From positions 124,001 through 188,000 of the forward strand of contig JACDOE010000004.1 in NCBI GenBank assembly GCA_017656255.1: 64,000 bases of DNA, in the 5' to 3' direction. This stretch comes from Bacillaceae bacterium. Its GTDB lineage: Bacteria; Bacillota; Bacilli; JACDOE01. How positions within the stretch are numbered: position 1 is the first letter of the stretch; each line of letters opens with the position of its first letter. Of the stretch, positions 7,998 through 20,711 are shown piece after piece. A program made the translations under genes and the position numbers. The notes under the pieces are model-generated. The model was not told the DNA's origin, made no database searches, and saw only the letters and a program-made list of their open reading frames with translations.

Positions 7998-8492
7998 TTA
8001 TTGTTCAATCACCAGTTTGACTTCCTCTTTGAGGCTGGCCAGTACCGGGGATTTCGCCAGTGCAGCCTCCGCGATCTCTCTGACCTGATCTTCGGAAGCC
8101 GAAGATTCCACCTTCAGTTTAATCACCGGATTGATAACGCCGCCGTAGCCCTCTTCAATCCCCAGAAAAACAGCTGCATTCAGGTCCGCTTCAATGTCCG
8201 CCTCCACATGTTTAAGTGTCACACCCTGTTGACTGGCCATCACTTCAAACGTGATCGCAAAGCAGCTGGCAGCCGCTCCAATCAAATATTCCACTGGATT
8301 CGGGGCGGTATCCGTTCCACCCAGTGTATCCGGTTCATCCACCTGAATCGTGGGGAATTCCCGGATATTGAGTTCGTTATGAACCCCGTCTTTCCAGGTT
8401 ACACGGGCGTTCCATTTTCTCATTTTGAGGGTGCGATCAGCCGTGATGGCTTCCGTTGTCTTATTTAATACGTCCAGTTTAATGTTGTTCAT
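7998..8492 (-). CDS. OsmC family protein (single-cysteine type)
   Basis: A 164-residue OsmC/Ohr-fold protein. The core helix has the peroxidatic cysteine in GAAASCFAITFEV. The second cysteine of true Ohr/OsmC peroxidases is missing: the corresponding segment reads AKSPVLASL, with Ser in place of Cys, and this is the only cysteine in the protein. It may therefore use an external thiol (bacillithiol is made by this organism) or do something other than peroxide reduction. The start is ATG (MNNIKLDV) behind AAGGAGGAG. A palindromic operator matching one beside the adjacent Crp/Fnr gene lies 58 nt upstream, so it is a probable regulon member. Confidence 0.85.
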   Translation of the reverse strand: MNNIKLDVLNKTTEAITADRTLKMRKWNARVTWKDGVHNELNIREFPTIQVDEPDTLGGTDTAPNPVEYLIGAAASCFAITFEVMASQQGVTLKHVEADIEADLNAAVFLGIEEGYGGVINPVIKLKVESSASEDQVREIAEAALAKSPVLASLKEEVKLVIEQ

Positions 8493-8549
8493 GGTTCTCT
8501 CCTCCTTGTCCTGAAGTTGCGCTTCTATCTTATCGCACCCTGACATGTC

Positions 8550-8573
8550 TGTATGTAAGCCTCATTACATAGG
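8550..8573. promoter_or_regulatory. Operator for the adjacent Crp/Fnr regulator, upstream of osmC
   Basis: The site reads TGTATGTAAG-N4-ATTACATAGG, an inverted repeat with core TGTAA-N6-TTACA. It matches the perfect palindrome at 9259-9282 in 17 of 20 arm positions. It lies upstream of osmC and also covers the last codons of the regulator gene. Confidence 0.65.
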
Positions 8574-9230
8574 GTCCGAATCCTTTCTAATCCAGATACA
8601 TCGGTCCAGCTGCCGGATTTCACCGGAATGGGTGAGTTTGTTCAGGAGGAACGTAACCGTTTCCCGGGTGGAGGCAATCATACCGGCCAGATCTTTATGG
8701 GTCACAAACGGCGGCAGCGGCAGCCACCCATTTTCTTCACGGGAAGGATCCGCCAGTTTTTTCAACTGGAAAAGTAATCGCTCTTCGACTTTTTCATAGG
8801 CCACCTGTTCCAGTACTTCGATGGTTTCTTCCAGCCGGTTGGACAGATAGTGCAACAGAGCCATGGACAACTCGGGAGTTTCCCTGACCGCCTGCTTGAC
8901 TTCACCACGGGAAAGCACGATTACCTCAACATCGGTCAATGCCCGTGCAAACAGACGGCTTTCCCGGTCGGTAAACACATGAAGCAGGTCGATAAAATCT
9001 CCTTCCTGGATGACACCCAGCACACACTCTTTTCCGTTGATATTCAGGTGAAAAATTCGGGCAAATCCTTCTACCATGAGAAAGACTTGATTCTCCTGTT
9101 TCCCGGGTACCTGAATATACTCCCCTTTTTTAAAATGTTGTTTTCGGCCATGCTGCATCCATTCACGGACACACTCTTCAGGAAAAAGATGCAGGAATCT
9201 TGCCGGATAAAAGTGATGTTGTTCTGTCAT
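8565..9230 (-). CDS. Crp/Fnr family transcriptional regulator
   Basis: A 221-residue regulator: N-terminal cyclic-nucleotide-binding-type beta barrel (about 20-130), dimer helix (about 130-150), C-terminal winged helix. The recognition helix is STRETVTFLLNKL, which keeps the Arg-Glu pair of Crp but has Phe where Crp has its second Arg. No N-terminal cysteine cluster is present, so it is not an iron-sulfur FNR. The start is ATG (MTEQHHFYP) behind AAAGGAG; a longer open frame upstream runs through the operator and is rejected. Identical-core palindromes lie upstream of its own gene and of osmC, which suggests that it controls itself, the divergent TusA-like gene and osmC. The signal is unknown. 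Confidence 0.88.
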   Translation of the reverse strand: MTEQHHFYPARFLHLFPEECVREWMQHGRKQHFKKGEYIQVPGKQENQVFLMVEGFARIFHLNINGKECVLGVIQEGDFIDLLHVFTDRESRLFARALTDVEVIVLSRGEVKQAVRETPELSMALLHYLSNRLEETIEVLEQVAYEKVEERLLFQLKKLADPSREENGWLPLPPFVTHKDLAGMIASTRETVTFLLNKLTHSGEIRQLDRCIWIRKDSDPM

Positions 9231-9258
9231 GACAAACTCCTTTATGTTGAATAATAGA

Positions 9259-9282
9259 TGTATGTAAGCATCCTTACATACA
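9259..9282. promoter_or_regulatory. Perfect palindromic operator between crp-like and tusA-like genes
   Basis: TGTATGTAAG-CATC-CTTACATACA is a perfect 10+10 inverted repeat. The core TGTAA-N6-TTACA has the geometry of Crp/Fnr sites (TGTGA-N6-TCACA). It sits in the divergent intergenic region, 29 nt from the regulator start and 62 nt from the TusA-like start, so it can control both. Confidence 0.8.
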
Positions 9283-9344
9283 GTTTCAGCTCGACATGCT
9301 ATTTTTATTTTAACCCCGCAACACTTAACCAAGGAGGCTCACAG

Positions 9345-9572
9345 ATGCAAGAAAATCATGTGCTCGATATCAAAGGTTTTTCCTGTACCATGTTAATCGT
9401 CAAAACAAAAAATGCGATAGACAAACTGAACCCGGGTGACGTGCTCGAGGTTCATACCACCGATAGGGGTGCCGTCAATGATTTGAAAGCATGGACCCGA
9501 TCAGTGGGGCATGAGATCATTGATTTTCAGGAAGAAGATGATGTGTTGAAATTCTGGATTAAAAAAGGGTAA
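9345..9572 (+). CDS. TusA-like sulfur carrier family protein
   Basis: A 75-residue protein with the TusA/SirA two-layer fold pattern: DIKGFSCTMLIVKTKNAIDKL, then GDVLEVHTTDRGAVNDLKAW, then an acidic C-terminus ending in KFWIKKG. The single cysteine stands where TusA has its persulfide-carrying cysteine, but the usual Cys-Pro-x-Pro is Cys-Thr-Met-Leu here, so it belongs to a side branch. It probably passes a sulfane sulfur to a partner such as an OsmC or DsrE-like protein; both kinds are encoded nearby. The start is ATG after AAGGAGG. It is divergent from the Crp/Fnr gene across a shared operator, and a strong terminator follows. Confidence 0.8.
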   Translation: MQENHVLDIKGFSCTMLIVKTKNAIDKLNPGDVLEVHTTDRGAVNDLKAWTRSVGHEIIDFQEEDDVLKFWIKKG

Positions 9573-9645: not shown

Positions 9646-10092
9646 TCAACAGCGCTTTCCCTGATCGAACAGCCTTTTCAATTCATCCTGATTCTTCAGA
9701 AGGTCTGCCAGCGTATACGAATCCAGTACTTCCAGAAAGGCGGTCAGTGCCTGGTTCAATACATGTTTCAACCGGCAGGCAGGGCTGATGATACACTGAT
9801 TCGCATCAGCATTAAAACATTCCACGAAATTGACATTATCTTCGGTCTGTCGGACCACCCAGCCGATATTGATTTTTTCCGGAGAAAGGGCCAGGCGGAT
9901 CCCTCCGTTACGTCCCCGAATCGTTTGCAGCAGTCCCAGTTTGCCCAGGTGATGGACAATTTTACCCAGGTGGTGGGTAGAAACGCCATATGCACGTGAA
10001 ATTTCATTAATATTTGAGATGGTGCCTTCCGGTTGAGACCCCAGAAAAATCAGGACACGCAGCGAGTAGTCCGTATAACTGGTCAATTGCAT
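9646..10092 (-). CDS. nsrR: Rrf2-family nitric oxide-sensing repressor NsrR
   Basis: A 148-residue Rrf2-type repressor. The N-terminal winged helix (MQLTSYTDYSLRVLIFLG) is followed by three cysteines, C92, C100 and C106, in ECFNADANQC and ISPAC, the ligands of the NO-sensitive iron-sulfur cluster in NsrR. The match is close to NsrR and not IscR because of the NFVECF start of the cluster region. It faces away from a truncated haemoglobin gene, and the intergenic region holds a textbook NsrR palindrome, so it very likely represses the haemoglobin gene and itself until nitric oxide damages the cluster. Confidence 0.92.
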   Translation of the reverse strand: MQLTSYTDYSLRVLIFLGSQPEGTISNINEISRAYGVSTHHLGKIVHHLGKLGLLQTIRGRNGGIRLALSPEKINIGWVVRQTEDNVNFVECFNADANQCIISPACRLKHVLNQALTAFLEVLDSYTLADLLKNQDELKRLFDQGKRC

Positions 10093-10183
10093 CCGTATGC
10101 TCCCCCTTCAATCCACTAACAGATCCTTTATTCTGATTGTAAACAAAGTGCCGCAAAGAATAAATGTCATACAATTTTCATAA

Positions 10184-10206
10184 AACATGTATTTAAAATA
10201 CATCTT
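10184..10206. promoter_or_regulatory. NsrR operator
   Basis: The core ATGTATTTAAAATACAT is a perfect 8-1-8 palindrome, and flanking AAC/CTT bases extend the match to the known NsrR consensus (two ATGCATTT-like arms around one base). It overlaps the -35 region of the promoter for the haemoglobin gene. Confidence 0.88.
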
Positions 10207-10213
10207 TTAATTT

Positions 10214-10219
10214 TATAAT
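10214..10219 (+). promoter_or_regulatory. Promoter -10 element of the truncated haemoglobin gene
   Basis: TATAAT lies 51 nt before the start codon. The -35 position falls inside the NsrR palindrome, so bound NsrR would block RNA polymerase. Confidence 0.65.
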
Positions 10220-10270
10220 GGGACTGTATGGGGACCATTATGACATCTTTAGAAAAGAGGAGGATATCAC

Positions 10271-10645
10271 ATGGCAACATTGTATGAAAGACTGGGAGGA
10301 CAGGAAGCGATCGCAAAAGTGGTGGATTATTTTTATGATCGTATACTTGCCGATGATCAAGTGAATCATTATTTTAAAAACACGGATATGAACAAACAAC
10401 GGAGACATCAGGCCCTTTTTATCACCTATGCCACAGGTGGACCCAATCAATACCCGGGTCTGGACATGAAAAAAGCCCACGAAGGTATGGGCATTTCCGA
10501 TAAAGATTTCGATGCGATCGTCAATCATCTGGCAGCAGCCCTCAAGCATTTCGACGTGGATGATGAAACTATTCAGGAAGTAGCGGCCAGTCTGGAACCG
10601 TTAAGAAAAGACATTGTTGAAAAACCTTCTTATGCCACTTCTTAA
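10271..10645 (+). CDS. Group I truncated haemoglobin
   Basis: A 124-residue haem protein of the trHbN group. Expected residues are visible: the FY pair at the B helix (about 21-22) with the distal Tyr, the double glycine in YATGGPNQY, and the proximal His in KKAHEGMGI (H70). Group I truncated haemoglobins oxidise nitric oxide to nitrate with oxygen. The divergent nsrR and the operator between them show a nitric oxide defence role here. The start is ATG behind GAGGAGG. A bidirectional-looking terminator follows, so it is a single-gene unit. Confidence 0.95.
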   Translation: MATLYERLGGQEAIAKVVDYFYDRILADDQVNHYFKNTDMNKQRRHQALFITYATGGPNQYPGLDMKKAHEGMGISDKDFDAIVNHLAAALKHFDVDDETIQEVAASLEPLRKDIVEKPSYATS

Positions 10646-20399: not shown

Positions 20400-20438
20400 G
20401 CAGACAAAGACATCCTTACAAAAAGGAGTGACATCGTG

Positions 20439-20711
20439 ATGGCCAAACCAAACGTCACCGTCTATACAAGGCCCACCTGAACAGACTGCCATGCGCTGAA
20501 AGAGTTTCTTTCACATCACCAGATAGAATTTCAAGAAATTGATCTCGGCACTCAACCTGAAAAAGAGGACGAATTGAAACAGAAAACCGGAACCCTTATT
20601 GTTCCGGCTATTGTGGTAGAGCAGCGTACATTTCTGGGACTTTTTAATAAAAGTAACGTTTTCATCGGCTTTGAACAGAACAGGTCTGAAATTGAAGCCC
20701 TGTTGCTGTAA
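20439..20711 (+). CDS. Glutaredoxin-like selenoprotein (in-frame TGA as selenocysteine)
   Basis: A 90-residue thioredoxin-fold protein if the TGA at 20478-20480 is read through. The sequence begins MAKPNVTVYTRPT-U-TDC: strand 1, then a U-x-x-C motif (U14, C17) at the exact place of the glutaredoxin CxxC. After it come HALKEFLSHHQIEFQEIDL, the cis-Pro in IVPAIVV, and FIGFEQNRSEIEALLL, the usual glutaredoxin end. The start is ATG behind AAGGAG. A SECIS-like hairpin begins 16 nt after the TGA. Conventional gene finders would miss it or call a 14-residue stub. It should be a thiol-disulfide reductase with high reactivity; the downstream neighbour is a YbaK-type deacylase. A TGT-to-TGA mutation or sequencing error is the alternative. 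Confidence 0.8.
20491..20516 (+). promoter_or_regulatory. Bacterial SECIS-like hairpin
   Basis: Upper stem UGAAAG/CUUUCA (6 bp) closes the 5-nt loop AGUUU; below it a 3-nt bulge (CGC) and a short AUG/CAU stem. The loop G is the second loop base and lies 23 nt after the UGA. This meets the published bacterial SECIS criteria: apical loop of 3-14 nt with a G in its first two bases, 16-37 nt from the UGA. Confidence 0.65.

Follow-up and report, generated by a model that had tools for sequence, protein, structure and literature searches.

The logic of class II activation by Crp-type proteins is textbook knowledge. The site of Escherichia coli CRP carries TGTGA, residues E72, R82 and S128 of CRP are cAMP contacts, and the hallmark of FNR is an N-terminal cluster of Fe-S cysteines. 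At NtcA class II promoters, the site GTAN8TAC is centred at -41.5 and is accompanied by a -10 element of the form TAN3T (PMC3898017). Concerning the OsmC family, YhfA is presented as an uncharacterised member in which an Arg and a Glu adjacent to the cysteine are missing, and what YhfA-type OsmC proteins do, and with which properties, is described as still to be investigated (PMC8945050).

The locus analysed here joins these two families. It probably encodes a regulator dedicated to OsmC, which would act as a class II activator of one or two genes and not of a wide regulon. A circuit formed by such a regulator and its private OsmC, as well as the signal behind it, seem to be undescribed. No description of an OsmC-linked Crp/Fnr activator was found in open-access literature listings, a search that does not show its absence from print, and the family library searched held no name for the regulator subfamily or its OsmC circuit.

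The window, that is, the whole 64-kb stretch of DNA analysed, is part of a genome of 3.41 Mb in 36 contigs. The features of the module are the following:

7998..8492, minus strand: osmC, 164 aa, PF02566, with one invariant cysteine (C77), Ser148 and no resolving cysteine
8527..8532, minus strand: -10 hexamer of osmC (TAAGAT), 17 bases beyond the operator, with a predicted transcription start at about 8520
8550..8573, minus strand: osmC operator, CCTATGTAATGAGGCTTACATACA on the minus strand, found at this position in each of the 21 distinct loci
8565..9230, minus strand: Crp/Fnr-family regulator, 221 aa, ATG at 9230, PF00027 and PF13545, with Cys69 in GKEC and the recognition helix STRETVTFLLNK, both conserved among orthologues
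9259..9282, plus strand: tusA-like operator, a perfect palindrome, with the same arrangement in loci L049 and L051
9300..9305, plus strand: -10 hexamer of the tusA-like gene (TATTTT), 17 bases beyond the operator, with a predicted transcription start at about 9312
9345..9572, plus strand: TusA-like protein, 75 aa, PF01206, with CTML instead of CPxP

An earlier note on this DNA had assigned the three genes to a Crp/Fnr regulator, a one-cysteine OsmC and a TusA-like protein, and the Pfam matches agree with it. It had also proposed that a palindrome between the regulator and the tusA-like gene, with a near copy before osmC, links the three genes, and the site was indeed found at both promoters. 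The perfect 10+10 palindrome, TGTATGTAAG-CATC-CTTACATACA, lies at 9259-9282, and the copy at 8550-8573, between the regulator and osmC, differs in 3 of 20 bases. Two matches at up to three mismatches were not obtained in any of 100 shuffles of the window. When the whole genome was searched with an 18-base form at the same tolerance, four places appeared versus one for the reversed control pattern. The operator pair accounted for two of them, at 0 and 2 mismatches, and the remaining two stood at 3; one of these falls within an open reading frame, and a -10 element at the right distance is missing from both. Hence, the two operators are not due to chance, as the shuffles gave none and only these two places fall below three mismatches genome-wide.

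Orthologues of the regulator were collected by several searches. A search of 61 genomes gave three clear ones (50-64% identity), and 6 of the 398 genomes of the class, including the window's own, carried the regulator. Searching genome contigs with a single protein gave no match, and the alignment as query found 18 loci in named genomes of Bacillaceae and relatives, Hazenella and Desulfosporosinus. The orthologues are 45-66% identical. The resulting 24 loci correspond to 21 distinct ones after removal of L035 and L042, which come from the same genomes as L046 and L058, respectively, and of L047. The latter is the second copy in Cytobacillus citreus, whose proteins are identical to those of L048, which was kept. 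These two regulator-osmC copies stand on different contigs, and the identity of both the regulator and OsmC proteins points to a recent duplication or a mobile copy.

The pairing of both genes is obligate in the sequences compared. osmC is located directly downstream of the regulator in 24/24 loci, its products being 57-65% identical to that of the window, and the site stands between both genes in all 21 distinct loci. Moreover, this OsmC subfamily is confined to exactly the 6 of 398 class genomes that carry the regulator. The divergent tusA gene is present in only three of the 21 loci, namely the window, L049 (a Bacillaceae metagenome-assembled genome) and L051 (Alkalihalobacterium elongatum), which means that the module can do without sulfur trafficking. 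The second site, upstream of the regulator, is found only in these three, and no further recurrent neighbours were found among the loci. Regarding the controls, none of 26 other Crp/Fnr loci (L009-L034) had an OsmC match or a site at up to three mismatches, and two of them had one at four. Six more distant relatives within the phylum lacked OsmC and any site at up to four mismatches, and present GKEQ, GKEK, GKEI, GREV or GRRV in place of GKEC.

The regulator belongs to the Crp/Fnr superfamily (PF00027, 56 bits; PF13545, 31.7 bits; both above cut-off) and to none of its named groups. Its score is 63.5 bits for the CRP family (cut-off 266) and 55.4 bits for the NtcA equivalog (cut-off 244.95). 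The window protein is far below the cut-off of every named Crp/Fnr subfamily, and the other 17 orthologues match the same family set. These proteins carry one to four cysteines each and no N-terminal cluster, which separates them from FNR. When the 18 orthologues were aligned to E. coli CRP, the recognition helix was found to keep R180 and E181 in all of them and to replace R185 by Phe or Leu in all of them. The earlier note had read the window protein in this way, with Arg-Glu kept and Phe at the residue that contacts the central G in Crp, in keeping with TGTAA instead of TGTGA, and this reading fits all 18 aligned orthologues.

The best solved-structure and sequence matches of the regulator are CRP, GlxR and NtcA, which bind cAMP or 2-oxoglutarate. 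Whole-model superposition was poor for both the regulator and OsmC models (Foldseek rmsd mostly around 10 or more), either because domains move or because confidence is low, so the models are used as fold support only. These matches and the fold itself suggest a ligand-binding activator, responding to a nucleotide, a 2-oxoglutarate-like acid or another metabolite, in which C69 would be only structural. The position of this residue agrees with such a role, since it is part of the beta-roll and aligns with Crp Met59, on the strand 68-75 of the sensor domain in the predicted model (mean pLDDT 87.7). However, E72 is replaced by Leu or Ile and S128 by Ile or Val in 18/18 orthologues, and R82 is Arg in just 3/18. 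In addition, a cysteine at this position occurs strictly in the OsmC-linked clade, and the target is a thiol protein. A ligand-binding activator is a real possibility that falls short of being probable.

The reading that we prefer is a reactive species acting on the cysteine. C69 is invariant in 18/18 regulators and is the only cysteine in six of them (five full-length proteins and the truncated L052 frame). Together with a one-cysteine OsmC and a TusA-like partner, it makes the sensing of sulfane sulfur or an electrophile plausible. A Crp-type sensor domain that has lost the cAMP contacts would read the signal, and the likeliest trigger would be the modification of Cys69 by sulfane sulfur, a persulfide or an electrophile. 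The full proposal, a Crp-fold single-cysteine sensor of reactive sulfur or electrophiles that exists only to switch on a one-cysteine OsmC, with a specialised TusA lacking CPxP captured in some lineages, is tentative and, taken in all its parts, rather doubtful.

A peroxide response, with a regulator sensing hydroperoxides and an OsmC working as a canonical thiol peroxidase, was also considered. The OsmC protein of the window has the OsmC domain (PF02566, 68.6 bits) and the fold of the OsmC/Ohr family (model mean pLDDT 76), of which known members reduce organic hydroperoxides (PMC8945050). Nevertheless, it is not a two-cysteine protein. Its single cysteine, C77, is invariant, and the resolving cysteine of E. 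coli OsmC (AGCPV) is a serine here (AKSPV), Ser148, invariant in 18/18 as well. Furthermore, the glutamate located ten residues before the active cysteine in E. coli OsmC (NPEE) is replaced by valine (NPVE), this position being methionine in YhfA. The canonical two-cysteine peroxidase cycle is unlikely with both replacements. The protein also falls far below the cut-offs of the OsmC/Ohr NCBIfam models, and the other 17 reach no better than similar E-values. Regarding these data, a peroxide response is clearly improbable. C77, and the TusA-like protein where present, could instead bind the reactive species that would modify Cys69, or hand it on.

The TusA-like protein carries the TusA domain (PF01206, 71.7 bits) and does not present the CPxP motif. 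By a loose pattern search in which some loci are copies of one genome, C-P-x-P was found in 61 of 64 motif occurrences (59 loci), and CTML only in the three TusA proteins adjoining the regulator. These three form one clade with a support of 0.98. Four further TusA-domain matches of the window genome are grouped within 8 kb (contig 1, 557688-565241), which is probably a sulfur-metabolism cluster, and the genome-wide pattern searches gave no operator there.

The operator was defined from 24 promoter sites (21 osmC and 3 tusA), which are not independent, since several loci are close relatives and grouping leaves about 16 lineages. Their consensus, (A)TGTAA(G)-N4-CTTACATacA, is asymmetric. Positions 6-8 (GTA) and 16-21 (TTACAT) are invariant in 24/24; CTTACAT, the half next to the promoter, occurs unaltered in 23/24, and the far half, ATGTAAG, in 15/24, being weak in the site of L058. 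The outer ACA of the proximal side is kept in 16/24 sites, and the distal TGT in one, the tusA site of the window itself. The 10+10 palindrome of the earlier note is thus perfect at that site, but overstated as a description of the operator, and its perfection owes something to chance in this genome. Read from these alignments, the element is a 7+7 core with a promoter-side extension. This extension (CATACA) takes up the place where a -35 hexamer would be expected, which may explain the asymmetry of the operator.

The position of the site relative to the promoter points to activation. All 24 sites are followed by a TAnnnT -10 hexamer, which begins 17 bases after the 24-base site in 71% of cases and 18 bases after it in 29%; at each of the other spacings scanned, from 5 to 44, such a hexamer appears in no more than 17% of the sites. 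With this spacing, the site centre comes to lie at -41.5 or -42.5. As for the -35 region, no hexamer matches more than 3 of 6 positions in 23/24 promoters. A site near -41.5, a -10 element and a poor -35 are the features of a class II activator-dependent promoter, as predicted from the sequences. The regulator dimer would bind (A)TGTAA(G)-N4-CTTACATacA and bring RNA polymerase to promoters lacking a good -35, so that transcription of the neighbouring osmC, together with that of the divergent tusA-like gene in three lineages, would be switched on. Where tusA is present, 20-29 bases separate the end of the upstream site from the start codon of the regulator. A dimer bound there would block its own gene, and the site could serve for negative autoregulation. 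As a general mode of action, repression is very unlikely, since the osmC and tusA sites are centred at -41.5, clear of the -10, in promoters that lack a good -35.

The earlier note had expected a wider regulon, an idea that the genome-wide site searches did not support, since among the places inspected only those at osmC and tusA had the promoter geometry. The pattern ATGTAAG-N4-CTTACATACA, allowing two mismatches, gave 47 rows over 22 genome entries, of which G108 and G410 are one genome. Of these, 28 were osmC or tusA sites and 19 were elsewhere (16 distinct places), versus 12 for the reversed control. A -10 element at 16 to 19 bases was found in none of the 14 off-locus places inspected, which comprise all of the 16 but one in G011 contig 4 and one in G012 contig 6. 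Since the off-locus matches inspected have no -10, the circuit is local, comprising osmC plus tusA in three lineages. In the genome of the window, the only two good sites are both at the module, and on this sequence evidence the circuit is local there too.

A half copy of the site in the 5' untranslated region of a selenoprotein gene, at 20411-20420, had been put forward as a further member. It was rejected as an operator: it is an exact 10-mer only, of which 0.18 matches are expected per window by chance, and it has no match to TGTAAG-N4-CTTACA even at two mismatches. As a separate observation, the frame at 20439-20711 belongs to the glutaredoxin family (PF00462), and its in-frame TGA would give the U-x-x-C motif PTUTDC. 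The genome has a SelB match above its cut-off, and the 55 bases from this TGA fold no better than shuffled sequences.

Next to tusA, an Rrf2/NsrR-like gene (9646-10092) and a truncated globin gene (10271-10645) are divergently oriented, with a near-perfect palindrome between them (AACATGTATTTAAAATACATCTT, 10184-10206) whose shape we take to be that of an NsrR site; the stretch 9646-10645 looks like a nitric oxide-responsive NsrR-globin pair. Their adjacency to tusA would suggest that the module belongs to a nitric oxide defence unit, but this is highly improbable, because both genes are absent near the module in every other locus and the pair has its own, different palindrome.

The module offers a clean and testable circuit, in which a single regulator and a single type of site serve one or two promoters, and one invariant cysteine, the putative sensor, is paired with one cysteine in the target. 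Moreover, the inducer of a dedicated activator would point to the substrate of the one-cysteine OsmC.

Compared with known systems, the OsmC protein shares the fold and the active-site cysteine with the OsmC/Ohr thiol peroxidases, its nearest solved structure being 2opl (GSU2788, Geobacter), and differs from E. coli OsmC in the missing resolving cysteine and in the valine ten residues before the active one. The TusA-like protein shares the domain and the cysteine of TusA sulfur carriers, but has CTML for CPxP and forms a separate clade. Regarding E. coli CRP, the likeness includes the Crp fold, the Arg-Glu of the recognition helix and an OsmC-family gene beside the regulator, since in E. coli K-12 yhfA directly adjoins crp (3485414-3486752). 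However, yhfA is divergent from crp, whereas osmC is downstream of the regulator here; the cAMP contacts are lost, and the site has TGTAA instead of TGTGA. YhfA itself is similar to the window OsmC only over a short stretch and has further cysteines. This adjacency is a suggestive parallel only, which, if the single-cysteine sensor reading were true, would be a remote trace of an ancient functional link. With NtcA, which is among the best solved-structure matches, the regulator shares the Crp fold, an operator of the form TGTA-N8-TACA and a centre at -41.5 with a TAN3T -10 element (PMC3898017). It differs in scoring below the NtcA cut-off and in having one local target, where the NtcA regulon is global. 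In its promoter layout the regulator would work like NtcA without being a member of that family, and the invariant GKEC cysteine is a feature of its own.
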